From positions 620,001-684,000 of the forward strand of contig BQWY01000001.1 of the NCBI GenBank assembly GCA_036984305.1: a DNA stretch of 64,000 nt, given 5' to 3'. Numbering within the stretch: the first letter of the stretch is position 1; each line of letters starts with the position of its first letter. Under the pieces are notes generated by a model. That model was not told the DNA's origin and searched no databases. It saw only the letters and a program-made list of their open reading frames with translations. This document shows positions 56,552 to 63,877 of this stretch, piece by piece. The position numbers and the translations under genes are program-made. The DNA is from Nitrospira sp. (GTDB taxonomy: Bacteria > Nitrospirota > Nitrospiria > Nitrospirales > Nitrospiraceae).

Positions 56552-56860
56552 ATGTCACGCTATCGCACGTCACAGGCTGTTGCGATTCTCCTCGCGGGAG
56601 TGTTGCTCCTGCTGAGCGGACTCCTCTATCCGGCCACCGTGCCGCATGCGTTGCACCATGCGCATCACCAGGCGGCCACGCACGCCACGGCGCTCTGTTC
56701 GTGGCTCTGTGCCGCGGGACAGTTGACTGATGCCGCGTTGCCCCTGCTCCCGGCCGACTTCGCCCTCGTCGCACGGCTGACGGATCCCATCGCGCCTGAT
56801 CCTTTAATCGTCTCGATCTATCGCCCCTCCTCCCGCGCGCCTCCAGCGTCGACCTTCTAG
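56552..56860 (+). CDS. Small His-rich C-x-W-x-C exported protein, copy B
   Basis: A 102-residue paralogue of the protein at 55553. It has a hydrophobic N-terminal helix (AVAILLAGVLLLLSGLLYPA), then TVPHALHHAHHQAATH, then ALCSWLCAAGQ (Cys49, Trp51, Cys53), and a C-terminal SSRAPPAST. Copies A and B flank the TlpA gene, and their similarity extends to the DNA around YPATVPHA, so one arose by duplication. The gene begins 13 bases after tlpA. The role is inferred as periplasmic metal or redox binding; no enzyme motif is seen. Confidence 0.72.
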   Translation: MSRYRTSQAVAILLAGVLLLLSGLLYPATVPHALHHAHHQAATHATALCSWLCAAGQLTDAALPLLPADFALVARLTDPIAPDPLIVSIYRPSSRAPPASTF

Positions 56861-56959: not shown

Positions 56960-58012
56960 ATGAAGGTTGCCACGGTGCTCTGGTGTGTCGTCGGTGCGGT
57001 GATATCCATGCTGTTGGTGGCGGCGCCGGCGCCGGCGTCGTGCGGCGCAGTGAGCTGCTTTGTGGTTATCGGCTCGCAGCAGCAGGTGTCGCCGGCCGGC
57101 CTCTTGACGGCAAATCTGGTCTACAACTACACGCCCGTCTCCCCCGGTCCGGGCGGCGCGAACACGATTCCGTACGCGAACCAGCAAACCAAGCAACTCA
57201 TCCTGGGAAATATCCAAGTGGATCGGCTGGACACGCTCGTCCAGACCGCGTCGTTGGATTTGAACTATGGCCTCACGGATCGGATCGGCATCGAAGTCAT
57301 GTTGCCATACAAGTCGGTGCGGTCCACCGGTCAGTTCGGTCCTGGTAATGTCTCCGAATTTAACGACAAGGGCCTCGGCGACGTCATGGCAAGGCTCAAG
57401 TACAATCTGCTACCCACACTCCGCAGCATGTTCGTATTGGAAACGGCGGTGTTCTTCCCCACCGGGACCTACCAGCAGACCGGCGCCAACGGGCAGTATG
57501 CGGAATCCACGCTGCAGTTGGGCCGGGGCGCGTTCGGCTTTCAGCCCGGCTTCTACCAGACGTACGAAATTCTTCCTCACCGGCTCAACCAGTTCCTGCA
57601 GGGCTCCTGGCGCTATAACCTGCGGAATTCGGACGGCTACCAATTCGGACAGGAATACACACTGAATCTCGGGGTCAATCTGGTGACGGTGCCCTGGTTG
57701 ATCCTGACCGAGCAAATCAACTTCCGATACAAGACGAAAGACAATATGGAGGCGGCGCTGTATCAGTTTCTGCCGGCGCCCATCGACCGTGCCGTGCCGA
57801 TCGATCTCAACGTGATCGCACGGTCGGTCCCGACGACGAATTACACCTTCGTCGGCTTTTCCACCGGAGCGCTGGTCGACCTCTGGGGGCACGCGCAAGC
57901 CTATTTTGTTGCCCAAATCCCGGTCTATCGGGATTTCAACGGCAATCTGCAGCAGGATCTGAGTTTTGTGGGTGGTGTGACAAAGACGTTCAATGTACCG
58001 ACTCCATTCTAA
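56960..58012 (+). CDS. Outer-membrane beta-barrel protein (MetA-phenol/transporter-like)
   Basis: A 350-residue exported protein. The signal peptide ends at about AAPAPA (27). The mature chain begins SCGAVSCFVV with Cys28 and Cys33 close together, then strands: LLTANLVYNY, TASLDLNYGLTDRIGIEVML, MARLKYNLLP, FVLETAVFFPTGTY, and a C-terminal SFVGGVTKTFNV. This resembles the PF13557-type outer-membrane transporters placed with phenol degradation or metal genes. ATG 56960 follows GGGAAGGA. Flanked by C-x-W-x-C genes B and C in one operon. It is probably the outer-membrane part of that system; the substrate is unknown. The N-terminal C-x4-C may form a disulphide handled by the TlpA protein. Confidence 0.75.
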   Translation: MKVATVLWCVVGAVISMLLVAAPAPASCGAVSCFVVIGSQQQVSPAGLLTANLVYNYTPVSPGPGGANTIPYANQQTKQLILGNIQVDRLDTLVQTASLDLNYGLTDRIGIEVMLPYKSVRSTGQFGPGNVSEFNDKGLGDVMARLKYNLLPTLRSMFVLETAVFFPTGTYQQTGANGQYAESTLQLGRGAFGFQPGFYQTYEILPHRLNQFLQGSWRYNLRNSDGYQFGQEYTLNLGVNLVTVPWLILTEQINFRYKTKDNMEAALYQFLPAPIDRAVPIDLNVIARSVPTTNYTFVGFSTGALVDLWGHAQAYFVAQIPVYRDFNGNLQQDLSFVGGVTKTFNVPTPF

Positions 58013-58397
58013 TTTGAGGAGGGCATGCCTCGGCGTTGCCCTCACGGTGGGTCTCTGGGTGGGCGCGGTGGCGCCCGCGCAGTCGGTCATCTGCGCGCAT
58101 GGAGCCGCGTCGCCACTCGCTGTCCATGAGGCGGGGCTGTGCATGTGGTTTTGCGCGGCAGCGCAACCGGTTTCTCTGCTCGCTGCGCCAAGCCTGCTTG
58201 ACGCACCCGCGAGCGCAAGCTCGATCGAAGAAATGAATCAACCGGCCGCTAGTGTCGCCCAGGCACCTGTGGTGATGCTGAGAGGTCCCCCGGCCGCTGC
58301 TGCCCGTGCTTCGATTAGAAGATTACTTTCATTTTACATGTCACAGGGTCAAGGAGAGAACCATGCAGTACAGAGACGCTCAATTGAAATCGCATGA
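57993..58397 (+). CDS. Small C-x-W-x-C exported protein, copy C (divergent)
   Basis: A 134-residue member of the same small family, overlapping the barrel gene by 20 bases. After a signal helix (CLGVALTVGLWVGAVAPAQS) it has SVICAHGAASPLAVHEAGLC, then MWFCAAAQ. The His-rich tract is reduced to two His and a Cys, but C-x-W-x-C is kept (Cys50, Trp52, Cys54). The C-terminal motif is MLRGPPAAA, followed by an extra 30 residues that run into the next gene's start. Overlaps on both sides support tight operon packing. Confidence 0.62.
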   Translation: MYRLHSNLRRACLGVALTVGLWVGAVAPAQSVICAHGAASPLAVHEAGLCMWFCAAAQPVSLLAAPSLLDAPASASSIEEMNQPAASVAQAPVVMLRGPPAAAARASIRRLLSFYMSQGQGENHAVQRRSIEIA

Positions 58398-60091: not shown

Positions 60092-60301
60092 GTGAGCGAG
60101 GCTCTGTTACGGGTGAACGAGGCCGCTGAATTGTTGCAGGTCAGTCGGTGGACCGTTTACCGATGGCTGGCCGACGGACGCCTCCAGGGCACCAAGTTGG
60201 GGAAGGGTTCACTCCGTGTGCTCGGTGAATCGGTCTCGCGACTCATCGAAGAGAATCGCGTTAACCATCATCCCGGACATGAGGCACGGAAACGATCATG
60301 A
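60092..60301 (+). CDS. Small excisionase/MerR-like HTH protein, copy 1
   Basis: A 69-residue DNA-binding protein. ALLRVNEAAELLQVSRWTVY then RWLADGRLQGTKLGKGSLRV is the winged helix-turn-helix of the HTH_17 (excisionase/BldC-like) family, with the recognition helix in SRWTVYRW. The start is taken as GTG 60092, since the in-frame upstream stretch passes through the terminator hairpin. It is clearly a paralogue of the protein at 62331. There is no integrase or phage gene near either copy, so a local transcription role, probably controlling the genes that follow, is more likely than excision. Confidence 0.8.
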   Translation: MSEALLRVNEAAELLQVSRWTVYRWLADGRLQGTKLGKGSLRVLGESVSRLIEENRVNHHPGHEARKRS

Positions 60302-60375
60302 TCGAACGCCGCGTCGAGTGGGTGAGCACCAAGTGGCTGGTCTCCACGAAATTCCACGGGGAGAGAAATTTTTGA
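60298..60375 (+). CDS. Possible 25-residue peptide coupled to HTH copy 1
   Basis: An ATG overlaps the HTH stop in ATGA and opens 25 codons, ending in TTT TGA before the copy D gene. It contains a basic, Trp-containing stretch (EWVSTKWLVSTKFHG). No family is known. It could be a coupled leader peptide or chance. Confidence 0.2.
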   Translation: MIERRVEWVSTKWLVSTKFHGERNF

Positions 60376-60424
60376 ACTCACTGGTGCAGTCGTGAGCAAG
60401 TATCGGTAGACATTTACCCTCAGT

Positions 60425-60796
60425 ATGCGTATATCGATGGTCGACATGCAGCACCCCTCGGTTATCTTACGTGTAGGAGGACTCGTTTCAGTCTCGCTGA
60501 CTGGCGTCTACTTGACGTTGGTCTGCCTGGCGGCTTCCTGTATGTGGAGCCGTACGGACGCACAACACGGTCACGAACACGTTGGGCACCACCATTCTCA
60601 ACACAGTGGTGCGGACACTCGAAATGGTTCGCTTCTTTGTGCATGGGCCTGTCAAGCGGCCACTTCCACTGGTGTGGCGGTGGAGCCGTTCGCTGCTCCT
60701 GTCTTCATGGCCCAAGCAGTCCCAAGTCAGGAACCCGAGCCCATAGCTTCTGCCTCCCTCTTCAGCCTGATCTTCTCGCGCGGCCCCCCTCGGTAG
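60425..60796 (+). CDS. Small His-rich C-x-W-x-C exported protein, copy D
   Basis: A 123-residue member of the small family. A hydrophobic helix (LVSVSLTGVYLTLVCLAASC) is followed by HGHEHVGHHHSQHSG, the richest His tract of the four. Then come LLCAWACQAA (Cys72, Trp74, Cys76), a 35-residue linker, and the C-terminal FSRGPPR. It is detached from the first operon and lies right after HTH copy 1, so it may be regulated with the P460 cassette. Three possible ATGs (60425, 60437, 60446) are close together and none has a ribosome site. Confidence 0.65.
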   Translation: MRISMVDMQHPSVILRVGGLVSVSLTGVYLTLVCLAASCMWSRTDAQHGHEHVGHHHSQHSGADTRNGSLLCAWACQAATSTGVAVEPFAAPVFMAQAVPSQEPEPIASASLFSLIFSRGPPR

Positions 60797-61175
60797 CCCT
60801 TCACGATTCCGGCTCCTGCGGCGATTGCGTATTCGGCAACGTCCATTCGAACAAGGCAGTGGACGCGTTGCGGAGCAGTCGAGCTGCAGAGCGTGTGTAG
60901 GGACGCTTCGCGTTCACATAGTGGCATCAGATGATGGTTTGAACTGCTCCGAGTGCATCTGCCGATGGCTCGGTGCGCCGCCGGGGCGTCGGCGCCCTCT
61001 CCTGTGGCGCCGGTGTCCCGGTCCAAATGCCGTACTCGGTGTAGTAGCGCATGAATAGATGAGATCGGTGTCGCTCATGACTGCGAGTCCGAGAGTTGGA
61101 TTGGCCTCCTTGGCTCGGACTCTGGGTCGGGGGCGGGGTGCCTGTACCCTGCCCCCGGCCGGCACGGTCCGTTCT

Positions 61176-61550
61176 GTGAACCGGCTGATGGTCGGACTTG
61201 GCGTGCTGGTCCTGGTCGTTGGATTCAATGCGCCGGCTTATCTTGCTGCCTCCGTGTCATTTGGGAAGGAGGAGCCAAAGGCCCAGGATCGAGAGGCGTT
61301 CGAGGTGGAAAGGGAGGTCTATTCGACGGCCTGCCAGTATCGCGTCGAGTTGGCGGAAGCCGCTCTCGGATACATTGCGGCTCAGGCGCAGTTGACTTTC
61401 CTACGCCTCGGCGACCGATTGATCGTCAACATCGTCAACGGGCATCGGGCAATTGACGAACTGTCGAGAGAGGTTGAAGCCGCGTTGGAACGGGGATGGC
61501 AATGCGGGCATCATCACGCGGTCGACCGGGCATGGAGCGACATCCGGTGA
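61176..61550 (+). CDS. Exported single-Cys HMA-like protein, copy 1
   Basis: About 124 residues from GTG 61176; the frame is open from 61059, and ATG 61188 is also possible. A signal helix (MVGLGVLVLVVGFNAPAYLA) is followed by a domain that reads ACQYRVELAEAALGYI, then LTFLRLGDRLIVNIVNG, then AIDELSREVEAALERGWQC and GHHH. It aligns position for position with the protein at 62586. Predicted beta-alpha-beta-beta-alpha-beta order matches heavy-metal-associated (HMA) domains, with the M-x-C-x-x-C loop reduced to C-x-Y. The terminal GHHH could add a metal site. It lies upstream of the haem-less P460 gene, mirroring the downstream cassette. Confidence 0.65.
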   Translation: MNRLMVGLGVLVLVVGFNAPAYLAASVSFGKEEPKAQDREAFEVEREVYSTACQYRVELAEAALGYIAAQAQLTFLRLGDRLIVNIVNGHRAIDELSREVEAALERGWQCGHHHAVDRAWSDIR

Positions 61551-61734
61551 GGACATGAAACAGCTTCCAAACAAGCTCGACGCGGGTTCGAACGTGATAT
61601 CCCCACGGTCGAACAGAAGCCGGGGCGGACGCGTGACTGCCTCCCCGCCCCGGCCCGCCCATTCCTATCCCCTGACGGCGCTGAACTCGCTAGGTAACTC
61701 GCTCCTCCAGCGGCCACGAGTAGGAGGCCTGACG

Positions 61735-62307
61735 ATGTCGAGCGAGAGCATGGTGGAATCTTGGAAGCTTTGCCATGGGGCAGCCGCACCCACGGATCGA
61801 ACATTTGGTCGGGACTTCCTCCATACTGGCGAGCCCGCCGACGGTGAATTGGCCTTCGCGGTTGCCAAACTACTAGCGATTGCCGTGGACGTGTCCGCTT
61901 CGCCCACACATGAGCGGACCGTCGCCACGGTGCCAGTGCCTGTCGACTTTACGGAATGGCCTTCTGTGCAAACCGAACTCATAGGCGCATGGGGGGTAAG
62001 GACCATTCGATTCTATGTGAGTCCGAAGGCGTTCGGTTTGTCAGTTGACGACCCATTTCCCGTCGGAACCACGCTAATCGTCGAGACGATTCCCGCGAGT
62101 ATCCCGAGAGGCTGGGAGGTCAGGTCTTCATACGAGGCACGCGGGGTGACACGATTCGTCATGACGAAATGCGGCCACATTGACGCCGGCCTCCAAGGCA
62201 ATCAGACCAGCCATGTGTGGGTCTATGGGTATCAGGGGCCGGCGAAGTATGGTTTGAGCGAAATTGTCTCTGGAGTCAGCCGATTATCAACGGGAGAGAC
62301 GGCCTGA
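61735..62307 (+). CDS. Cytochrome P460-family protein lacking the haem motif
   Basis: 190 residues from ATG 61735, which follows AGGAGG (61722-61727). The core VPVPVDFTEWPSVQTE, IRFYVSPKAFG, DPFPVGTTLIVETI and then HVWVYGYQG tracks the haem-containing P460 at 63054 (LPADYKSWPKF, DIYVNQVGAK, SAFPNGTTMVMEL, HWVYSAY). It ends without any C-x-x-C-H, and no frame nearby supplies one. A middle hydrophobic stretch (ELAFAVAKLLAIAVDVSA) may be a former signal peptide, but the N-terminus before it is polar, so export is doubtful. It is either a decayed copy or a haem-free partner. It belongs to the first copy of a duplicated cassette. Confidence 0.65.
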   Translation: MSSESMVESWKLCHGAAAPTDRTFGRDFLHTGEPADGELAFAVAKLLAIAVDVSASPTHERTVATVPVPVDFTEWPSVQTELIGAWGVRTIRFYVSPKAFGLSVDDPFPVGTTLIVETIPASIPRGWEVRSSYEARGVTRFVMTKCGHIDAGLQGNQTSHVWVYGYQGPAKYGLSEIVSGVSRLSTGETA

Positions 62308-62330
62308 ACGGAGGAGATCGGAGGATGGTC

Positions 62331-62552
62331 ATGAAACTCCAAGAGTCTCTGTTGCGCGTGGAGGATGCAGCCAAAATTCTGAGTGTGAGTCGCTGGACGA
62401 TCTATCGCTGGGTGGAAGAGGGGCGGCTCGAGGCGACAAAGATCAGCCGGGGCAGCCTGCGAATCTTTCATCGGTCGGTCAATTCGCTGGTCGAGACCAA
62501 CTGTGTGCAGCGTGGAATTGTCATGGAGCCTCGAGAGAGGAACCGACACTGA
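62331..62552 (+). CDS. Small excisionase/MerR-like HTH protein, copy 2
   Basis: A 73-residue protein very similar to the one at 60092. The core reads SLLRVEDAAKILSVSRWTIY then RWVEEGRLEATKISRGSLRI. The helix-turn-helix recognition segment SRWT-YRW is the same in both, so they may bind similar DNA sites. ATG 62331 has GGAGG (62320-62324) six bases upstream; ATG 62325 with GGAGGAG further up is also possible. It lies 23 bases after the haem-less P460 and 33 bases before the HMA-like gene, so the second cassette begins here. Confidence 0.82.
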   Translation: MKLQESLLRVEDAAKILSVSRWTIYRWVEEGRLEATKISRGSLRIFHRSVNSLVETNCVQRGIVMEPRERNRH

Positions 62553-62585
62553 GCATTGCCGAGAGGCCGTGGAGGTATTGATTAC

Positions 62586-63005
62586 ATGAGCGGGTTGATA
62601 ACAAGCCGAGCTTTCCGGAGGCGACGCGCACGGCTAAGCGTCGCGACGATATTGGTCATGTCTGCCTATGCTGGTCAGGCTGACTGGGTATCGAGCGCGA
62701 CGCCAAGCGGAGCGGACAATATGCCTCAGCACATGGTGACCGTGCAGATTGCCGGGCGTTTTTGTGAATACCAGCGTGCGGACGTCAAGGCAGCGCTTGC
62801 GGACGTTTGGAGCGTCGTCACCGTCGAGTTTCTCAACGACCATGGCACACTACGCGTGTCCTACCATCCGGGGAATAAAGCGCGCGCCGACTTGATCTGG
62901 GAAATGGAACGGGCGTTGTCCATAGGGTGGTTTTGCACCGCGCGCATTCAAGAAGCCGGAGATGAGGGGAACCGGGTCTTCGGATTGCTGGACCTCAAAC
63001 GATAA
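62586..63005 (+). CDS. Exported single-Cys HMA-like protein, copy 2
   Basis: 139 residues from ATG 62586, with GGAGGT nine to ten bases upstream. A basic n-region (RRRRARLS) and a short hydrophobic helix (VATILVMSAYAG) suggest export. The domain runs MVTVQIAGRFCEYQRADVKA, then VVTVEFLNDHGTLRVSYHPG, then LIWEMERALSIGWFC. This is the strand-helix-strand-strand-helix order of HMA metal-binding domains, where GMTCxxC has become GRFCEY. Cys60 and Cys117 are shared with copy 1 and could bind metal, haem or form a disulphide. It is followed after 48 bases by the P460 gene. Confidence 0.7.
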   Translation: MSGLITSRAFRRRRARLSVATILVMSAYAGQADWVSSATPSGADNMPQHMVTVQIAGRFCEYQRADVKAALADVWSVVTVEFLNDHGTLRVSYHPGNKARADLIWEMERALSIGWFCTARIQEAGDEGNRVFGLLDLKR

Positions 63006-63053
63006 GGGCGTCGCGAGCGAGCCGGTTTTTTCCGTCAAACTTGGAGGATGGAT

Positions 63054-63608
63054 ATGAACACGAACAGGCGGCGGATTGTCTCAATCGTGCTGGGAGTCGT
63101 GTGTGTAAGCCTTGCCGGCATACTGACCGTGGGTGCAGGGGGCGGTCCGAAGGACGGCACGTTGCCGCTGCCCGCTGACTACAAGAGTTGGCCGAAATTT
63201 CTATCCGACGTTCAACGGCCGGATGCCAAGCAGGTTCGCGATATCTACGTGAATCAGGTCGGTGCCAAGGCCTGTCCCGTTTCGGCGTTCCCTAATGGCA
63301 CCACTATGGTCATGGAGCTCTATAAAGTTCAGATGGAGGGAGAGACGCCGGCAAGAGGACCTGACGGTAAGCTTGTCAGAGGCGATCTTGCCAAGGTTTT
63401 TATGATGGAGAAGAACGATGGCTGGGGGCAAGACGTGCCGGACAATGTGAAAAACGGCCACTGGGTCTACTCCGCCTATTCTCCAGACGGGAAGCCTGTG
63501 GCCGAGGATTTTACCAAGTGCCGCGCGTGCCATGCTCCCCTCGGGCAGAAGGACTTCGTCCACCGATATGACGAATTTTGTGCGCAGTGGTCTCACGCAG
63601 GCCACTAG
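63054..63608 (+). CDS. Cytochrome P460-family c-type cytochrome
   Basis: 184 residues from ATG 63054; GGAGG touches an earlier ATG at 63048, so the second ATG fits better. The signal helix is IVSIVLGVVCVSLAGILTVG. The P460 core follows (LPADYKSWPKFLSDVQ, DIYVNQVGAK, FPNGTTMVMELYKVQ, VFMMEKNDGWGQDVP, HWVYSAYSPDGKP), then the covalent haem motif CRACH (63519-63533) near the C-terminus. P460 cytochromes oxidise hydroxylamine to nitrous oxide or nitric oxide through a haem cross-linked to Lys, while related cytochromes c'-beta only bind gas. Lys in LYKVQ is a cross-link candidate but cannot be proved here. It closes the second HTH-HMA-P460 cassette. Confidence 0.87.
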   Translation: MNTNRRRIVSIVLGVVCVSLAGILTVGAGGGPKDGTLPLPADYKSWPKFLSDVQRPDAKQVRDIYVNQVGAKACPVSAFPNGTTMVMELYKVQMEGETPARGPDGKLVRGDLAKVFMMEKNDGWGQDVPDNVKNGHWVYSAYSPDGKPVAEDFTKCRACHAPLGQKDFVHRYDEFCAQWSHAGH

Positions 63609-63680
63609 TTCAACAGGGGGGCGTCAGGAGTTCCGAGGCTCGTGTGTGGGTCTGACCTACCTCCTCACGGGTTTCGGTTG

Positions 63681-63706
63681 AGGGGGCGGCGCTACCGCCG
63701 CCCCCT
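63681..63706 (+). terminator. Perfect 11-bp hairpin after the P460 gene
   Basis: AGGGGGCGGCG (63681-63691) pairs fully with CGCCGCCCCCT (63696-63706) around a CTAC loop, 73 bases after the P460 stop. A short AATGATTT follows. A likely end of the cassette transcript. Confidence 0.7.
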
Positions 63707-63877
63707 AATGATTTGAAAGGGGTTGATGCGGCGTAATCCCCTATGGGCTTTTGCGTCGGGACTCATCGAATTCATGCACATACGCCGAGTTTCAATGATG
63801 TAGCAAGCATCGGCAATCGTGAGAATCCATGCGTAGACATGGCAGAACAGTCCACCTATAACCACGGAGCGCATGCG

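Follow-up and report, generated by a model that had tools for sequence, protein, structure and literature searches.

A putative copper-responsive operon with a direct-repeat promoter and a CruR/CutF-like leader in Nitrospira

Gene content of the block

Nitrification depends on copper enzymes, and no description of copper control of the kind proposed here has been found for Nitrospira in the open-access literature. The DNA under study is a stretch of 64,000 nucleotides from Nitrospira sp. (the window; contig BQWY01000001.1 of GenBank assembly GCA_036984305.1, a near-complete assembly of 11 contigs), and the system in question is a block of genes at its far end that encodes, twice over, a helix-turn-helix (HTH) protein, an HMA-like protein and a P460-like protein, together with a small leader open reading frame (ORF) and a promoter built on direct repeats. 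It is reasonably likely that this block is a copper-responsive operon under a repeat-binding HTH protein of the BldC/Xis kind and a copper-sensing leader, the regulation itself, its direction and the role of P460 being what we infer. All the evidence is comparative and the genomes surveyed are mutually related; the relatives' loci that were mapped include 17 named loci, with gene calls made in this analysis. The features of the block are the following:

60092 to 60301, plus strand: HTH1, a single-domain DNA-binding protein of the HTH_17/excisionase type (PF12728, E 6e-12)
60382 to 60411, plus strand: direct-repeat element P1, 3 x 10 bp (TGGTGCAGTC GTGAGCAAGT ATCGGTAGAC), before the leader
60407 to 60435, plus strand: sigma-70-type promoter P1, TAGACA - 17 bp - TATATC
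60446 to 60796, plus strand: CruR/CutF-like leader ORF; frame open from the ATG at 60425, start after P1 probably 60446
60978 to 61023, plus strand: conserved hairpin between the leader and HMA-like 1, -34.6 kcal/mol
61129 to 61157, plus strand: second strong palindrome, just before HMA-like 1 (GGGGGCGGGGTGCC...CCTGCCCCC)
61176 to 61550, plus strand: HMA-like 1, a diverged member of type A, its frame being open from the ATG at 61059
61735 to 62307, plus strand: P460-like protein (copy 1), lacking CxxCH and an evident signal peptide, with a conserved VxxLLAIAxDV segment near its start
62325 to 62552, plus strand: HTH2 (PF12728, E 4e-11); start 62325 or 62331
62586 to 63005, plus strand: HMA-like 2, type A, with two invariant Cys, probably exported
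63054 to 63608, plus strand: cytochrome P460 (copy 2), with CxxCH and a hydrophobic export signal (PF16694, E 4e-27; PDB 7s5o, E 7e-15)

An earlier note on this DNA had described three gene types occurring twice in the same order, and both this content and this order stand, with significant similarity within each pair. The HTH copies are 49% identical (E 5e-24) and both match Pfam HTH_17; the HMA-like copies can be aligned (33% over 58 aa, E 3e-6) and are united by one profile, with E 1e-30 and 6e-39, both being rows of that profile. The third pair is less uniform than had been thought, since only the 63054 protein is a PF16694 cytochrome with CxxCH, the 61735 protein being similar to it (25%, E 1e-6) with neither CxxCH nor a Pfam hit. 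A recent tandem duplication of a three-gene unit is not supported, because the HTH and P460 pairs fall in separate, older paralogue classes and have long diverged. In fact, HTH1 clusters with the upstream HTHs of loci L039 and L064, HTH2 is not paired with HTH1 (weak support), and the P460 copies represent a hemeless and a heme type, each distinct and conserved, which are adjacent in other genomes. The small ORF at 60425/60446-60796 had been overlooked, and it is probably the regulatory head of the block.

The direct-repeat promoter and the HTH proteins

A Gibbs search upstream of the leaders yielded TGTAGCATCC GTGAGCAGCC GTCGGTAGAC, and in the window's own genome a pattern allowing three mismatches matches only at P1 and at a second site, P2, behind the P460 gene:

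63799 to 63838, plus strand: direct-repeat element P2, 4 x 10 bp (TGTAGCAAGC ATCGGCAATC GTGAGAATCC ATGCGTAGAC)
63834 to 63862, plus strand: promoter P2, TAGACA - 17 bp - TATAAC, ahead of c9 (ATG 63878)

The element consists of three or four 10-bp direct repeats, the last of which ends in TAGACA, that is, in the -35 box, and its self-match is highest at lag 10 (0.49 vs 0.26 expected). Four units are present at seven sites, and whatever the number of units, the -10 box keeps its distance from the last of them. Related loci hold 45 sites, as against 0 in shuffled and 5 in reversed sequence, and at 31 of the 45 the -10 box lies at a spacing of 17 bp (p 1e-16, on the assumption that all seven spacings tried are equally likely, 1/7). 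The element lies upstream of 24 of 25 type-A HMA genes and also before TonB receptors and c9; a P2-type element is found at the corresponding position ahead of c9 in L040, L046, L048, L055, L064 and L079. P460 genes, too, have an element of their own in a different family of the same order (L130, L131, L133). A generic promoter and terminator scan gave no excess over shuffles and missed P1 and P2, so that the promoter claim rests on the comparison between genomes. The possibility that the element is coding sequence ('NCSIREQASVDR' in frame) was ruled out, as it lies before the promoter and the frame in the window holds a stop. The element is unreported in the open-access literature searched. 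As a separate observation, loci L129-L133 of that other family (G050, G057, G060) carry an HTH gene, several clustered direct-repeat promoters, P460, TonB receptors and leaders, with no type-A HMA hit.

The HTH proteins are about 70 aa long, with HTH_17 over the whole length, and correspond to a lone MerR-like winged HTH with no effector domain; the genome has two copies of the family, both inside the block. Their profile matches the phage protein Gp37 (4j2n, E 9e-6), which we take to be an Xis, and, weakly, 6amk/6ama (E 0.04-0.07), presumably the BldC-DNA entries; TIGR01764 'excise' is matched as well, and the cut-off of the NCBIfam BldC model is not reached (20.6 vs 77 bits). BldC of Streptomyces is likewise a MerR-like winged HTH protein with a single domain and no effector domain, and it binds direct repeats of varying number in a head-to-tail manner (PMC5859096), which resembles the binding predicted here on sites of varying unit number. 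Unlike in BldC, the sites here are locked to a -35 box, several copies of the protein occur per island, and the role would be metal control.

HTH and element go together across genomes. In a set of 61 genomes, 20 have both, 3 only the HTH, 2 only the element and 36 neither; among 175 Nitrospiraceae genomes the corresponding numbers are 88, 19, 5 and 63 (p 3e-24, a Fisher value that overstates independence, the genomes of one family being related). Because both could merely track the island, the comparison was restricted to genomes with a strong leader match, where the association persists (86/15/5/20, p 1e-9, with the same reservation). Moreover, the HTH gene often lies about 100 bp or less from the element. 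It is therefore probable, judging by sequence, that the HTH protein binds the element, whose overlap with the -35 box allows repression; activation from the upstream repeat units is possible. Side by side with this, an exported protein family of about 180 aa (c19) was observed behind the HTH gene in L041, L042, L045, L046 and L072.

The leader ORFs

The ORF at 60446-60796 has an export signal, a His-rich stretch, the motif CAWAC and a C-terminal RGPP, in the arrangement CAWAC-42-RGPP. Its family, made up of small His-rich proteins that appear to be exported, is found in 155 of the 175 genomes (E 5e-28 for the window leader in the genome profile search, its sequence being a row of that profile), and in 62 of 64 family ORFs the spacing from CxxxC to R[AG]PP is exactly 41 or 42 residues. 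In the family alignment, little is conserved between the two motifs, the spacing and the motif being what is kept. The N terminus is hydrophobic (Kyte-Doolittle mean 2.0 over 15 residues), and the gaps behind the leaders are mostly 130-340 bp.

This design recalls CruR of Bordetella pertussis (bp2923) and CutF of Rhodobacter capsulatus, whose leader ORFs sense copper as nascent chains and control the genes behind (PMC9426467, PMC9973294). CruR has CXXC-45-RAPP, with a spacing fixed within 1-2 residues in its family, and stands at the head of copper/TonB operons (PMC9426467); CutF combines CxxxC with a Pro-rich end and is followed by a stem-loop (PMC9973294); and RGPP belongs to a motif class of arrest-peptide uORFs (PMC10987492). 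The leaders described here share the export signal, the Cys pair, the R[AG]PP or Pro-rich C terminus at a fixed spacing, the place as first gene of copper/TonB units with a long gap behind, and, as in CutF, a trailing hairpin. They differ in having CAWAC and a spacing of 41/42 rather than CXXC and 45, in lying below the Pfam cut-off, in heading HMA, P460 and HTH genes, in being coupled to a direct-repeat promoter, and in occurring in Nitrospirota. By this analogy the leader probably acts as a copper-sensing nascent chain. In the open-access literature, no paper on Nitrospira with CruR, CutF or DUF2946 was found.

The hairpin at 60978-61023 has double-sided changes in 6 of 12 pairs of the alignment, which was picked from the best-folding windows and thus favours structure, and a comparable hairpin occurs in most loci. 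Its model (R1) gives E 0.014 at the window site and 4e-7 in L040; among the sequences searched, the matches are confined to the island, several of them behind HTH genes. It does not obviously cover the HMA-like 1 start, and possibly corresponds to the stem-loop behind CutF.

The HMA-like and P460 proteins

The HMA fold suggested for the small exported protein is borne out by structure prediction: the AlphaFold2 model of HMA-like 2 has the order beta-alpha-beta-beta-alpha-beta and a pLDDT across the domain of nearly 90, its best Foldseek matches are copper and mercury HMA domains, and the family profile matches ATP7B and CopZ (E 7e-10 to 1e-4). The likeness to CopZ, MerP and ATP7B thus holds by structure and profile. 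On the other hand, the second Cys of CxxC gives way to H, Y, Q or R in type A and to Y in most of type B, a signal peptide is present, and the PF00403 cut-off is not reached (two relatives at 19.7-21.9 vs 24.8 bits, the window proteins giving no hit). The protein had been called one-Cys; two Cys are in fact invariant, at C60 and C117 in the numbering of the 62586 protein, the second lying in the motif GWxC as an extra residue relative to the known domains. Export of this protein, as had been supposed, is probable, and so is that of the haem P460.

After removal of duplicates there are 25 type-A HMA genes, two of them in the window. An HTH gene lies within 2.5 kb of 22 and a leader just upstream of 21, whereas a P460 gene of any type accompanies only 16 and is the least constant neighbour, so that the expected association was found for the HTH and only partly for P460. 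Type A occurs in 29 of the 175 family genomes, all 29 of which also have the HTH (p 1e-7), and 17 contigs that encode it are all from Nitrospira, Nitrospiraceae or Nitrospirota. In some loci a second type, B (CEFY...GWHC), forms a tandem with type A, and in others it stands by itself; as a side observation, a stand-alone exported type-B protein of about 101 aa is conserved outside the island in L049, L053, L057, L061 and L063.

The P460 family handles hydroxylamine and NO. The 63054 protein agrees with it in profile (PF16694), CxxCH and export signal, and the 61735 protein differs as a paralogue of the conserved hemeless set, with no CxxCH and no evident signal peptide; the mediocre predicted model of the latter (pLDDT 71), whose best match is cytochrome c'-beta (E 0.2), is only suggestive of a cytochrome c'-beta-like fold. 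Some lineage II Nitrospira have been reviewed as encoding a P460-like protein, outside this gene context (PMC6311188). A further P460 gene (L044:8593-9060) resembles a fusion of both types, with a hemeless-type start and a haem-type body; the first Cys of its CxxCH is changed to Ser and its C terminus is lost.

Proposed regulation and alternative explanations

The block very probably belongs to a copper-related island, which lies downstream of the nuo and secA genes, extends to about 74.4 kb in window numbering and keeps its place between secA/nuo and nikR across the mapped loci. Its copper-type neighbours are a CopA-type P-ATPase, SmbP-like repeats and TonB receptors. In the mechanism proposed, the block would be a single transcription unit, controlled at two levels, within this copper-handling island of Nitrospirales. 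The HTH_17 protein would assemble head-to-tail on the 10-bp repeats that reach the -35 box of P1 (and P2) and so switch the promoter; the leader would then act as a CruR/CutF-type nascent chain, in which copper at CAWAC alters stalling at RGPP, and the outcome, through the hairpin-bearing gap, would decide transcription or translation of the genes behind. Their products would be exported HMA-fold proteins handling periplasmic copper, a further HTH, the hemeless P460-like protein and the haem P460. Since CruR also heads a TonB-receptor operon, expression would by analogy be expected when copper is scarce, and expression mainly under copper shortage is slightly favoured; that P460 then offers a haem-based route for hydroxylamine or NO is doubtful. 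Whether the whole amounts to a previously undescribed two-layer copper switch of nitrifying Nitrospirota is evenly balanced in our judgement. In such a switch, an HTH of the BldC/Xis type would polymerise on three or four repeats, each one helical turn long, which take in the -35 box; a ribosome-arrest leader that senses copper would come next, and the two together would govern the two-Cys HMA proteins and the haem P460 along with its hemeless partner.

Several points weigh against this mechanism. Besides the relatedness that inflates the Fisher values, the HTH occurs with no detected element in 19 genomes and the element without the HTH in 5, and the 10-bp GC-rich RTNNGYANNC units differ from BldC's own 9-bp AATT....C. 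The leaders match Pfam DUF2946 (PF11162) only below the cut-off (E 0.003-0.1, 13.7-18.6 vs 23.7 bits), for which reason they are described as working like CruR/CutF and not as certified members, and the window leader would begin almost at the predicted transcript start. Finally, a NikR-like gene in the island leaves room for nickel, and the TonB receptors match siderophore/PqqU models best, not the copper receptor model.

The 5 genomes with the element and no detected HTH would fit a promoter bound by another regulator of the island, with the HTHs serving another role or being passengers; this is unlikely, given that the co-occurrence persists after conditioning on the leader, that HTH and element are often so close, and that relatives of the HTH bind direct repeats. 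Moreover, two of the exceptions are incomplete genomes (G109, 54%; G008, 70%), and in G009 (L135:8463) an island without HTH still has a single direct-repeat site, with a decayed last unit (GTCAATAGAT). The matches to TIGR01764 and Gp37 could alternatively point to a mobile element, with the HTHs as its excisionases and the repeats as its attachment arm sites, which is most improbable: the island keeps its place between secA/nuo and nikR, the repeats are locked to a promoter, and no integrase was noticed among the mapped neighbours, in which no family-profile search for integrases was made. The self-regulated cassette of the earlier note, in which the HMA-like protein delivers copper or haem to P460 or protects it, keeps its regulation by the HTH, which is probable, and draws on the adjacency of HMA and P460 genes in 16 of 25 loci and the probable export of both products. 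A closed unit built round P460 is nevertheless not supported, because HTH, promoter repeats and leader are common to TonB receptors, SmbP-like and other copper-type genes; the 9 of 25 HMA genes with no nearby P460 argue against delivery to P460 as a general role, P460 occurs without type-A HMA in L055, L058 and L137, and the HTH (107 genomes) is far more widespread than type-A HMA (29). We give this cassette little credence.

As for the leader and its signal, the His-rich and Cys motifs might serve just to bind metal and the N terminus is hydrophobic, as in an ordinary periplasmic copper-binding protein; that the CxxxC/RAPP proteins are no more than this is decidedly unlikely, for what is conserved is the spacing and the R[AG]PP end rather than the intervening sequence, and the ORFs head units with long gaps behind, like CruR. 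An island responding to nitrosative stress or to another metal (nickel, iron) would agree with the NH2OH/NO chemistry of P460, the NikR-like gene and the siderophore-type receptors, and is quite unlikely in view of the CopA-type ATPase, the SmbP-like and copper-type HMA profile matches and the CruR/CutF analogy; in addition, CutF-like proteins that go with nickel/cobalt genes have His and lack the Cys motif, whereas the leaders here carry Cys.

Should the proposed regulation by HTH and leader be true, CruR/CutF-type control would extend to Nitrospirota, lone MerR-like HTH proteins would be suggested to form a class of metal-linked regulators whose repeat code can be read, and a P460-family enzyme, with its hydroxylamine/NO chemistry and N2O, would be tied to copper status. 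With this locus there is a specific candidate for each of regulator, operator and leader, amenable to tests in vitro and in laboratory hosts.

Further features of the island

The island holds two more leader-like ORFs ahead of the block, and one more palindrome follows it:

56552 to 56860, plus strand: CruR/CutF-like leader of type b, the island's second, with a spacing of 41
57993 to 58397, plus strand: third CruR/CutF-like ORF, CMWFC-42-RGPP followed by a longer tail
63681 to 63708, plus strand: strong G+C-rich palindrome after P460 (AGGGGGCGGCGCTACCGCCGCCCCCT)

The last has no T run and hence was not scored as a terminator; it is possibly the end of the transcript. The search for known RNA families gave a single sub-threshold Rfam match, to CcsR1 (a CCUCCUCCC-motif sRNA), at 63642-63712. 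Before the block, the island encodes TlpA-like, beta-barrel and propeller proteins; after it come c9, c8, a TPR protein, a DsbA-like protein, the CopA-type P-ATPase with a YHS domain, HtrA, the NikR-like protein and a TonB receptor. The neighbouring c7 family resembles SmbP (PF16785) in its helical His repeats and differs in lying below the cut-off (E 1e-4). Finally, c9 (63878-64237) and c8 behind it are two small exported protein families with no Pfam match, c8 having no NCBIfam match either; they are usually paired in the island, and c9 is often under its own direct-repeat promoter.

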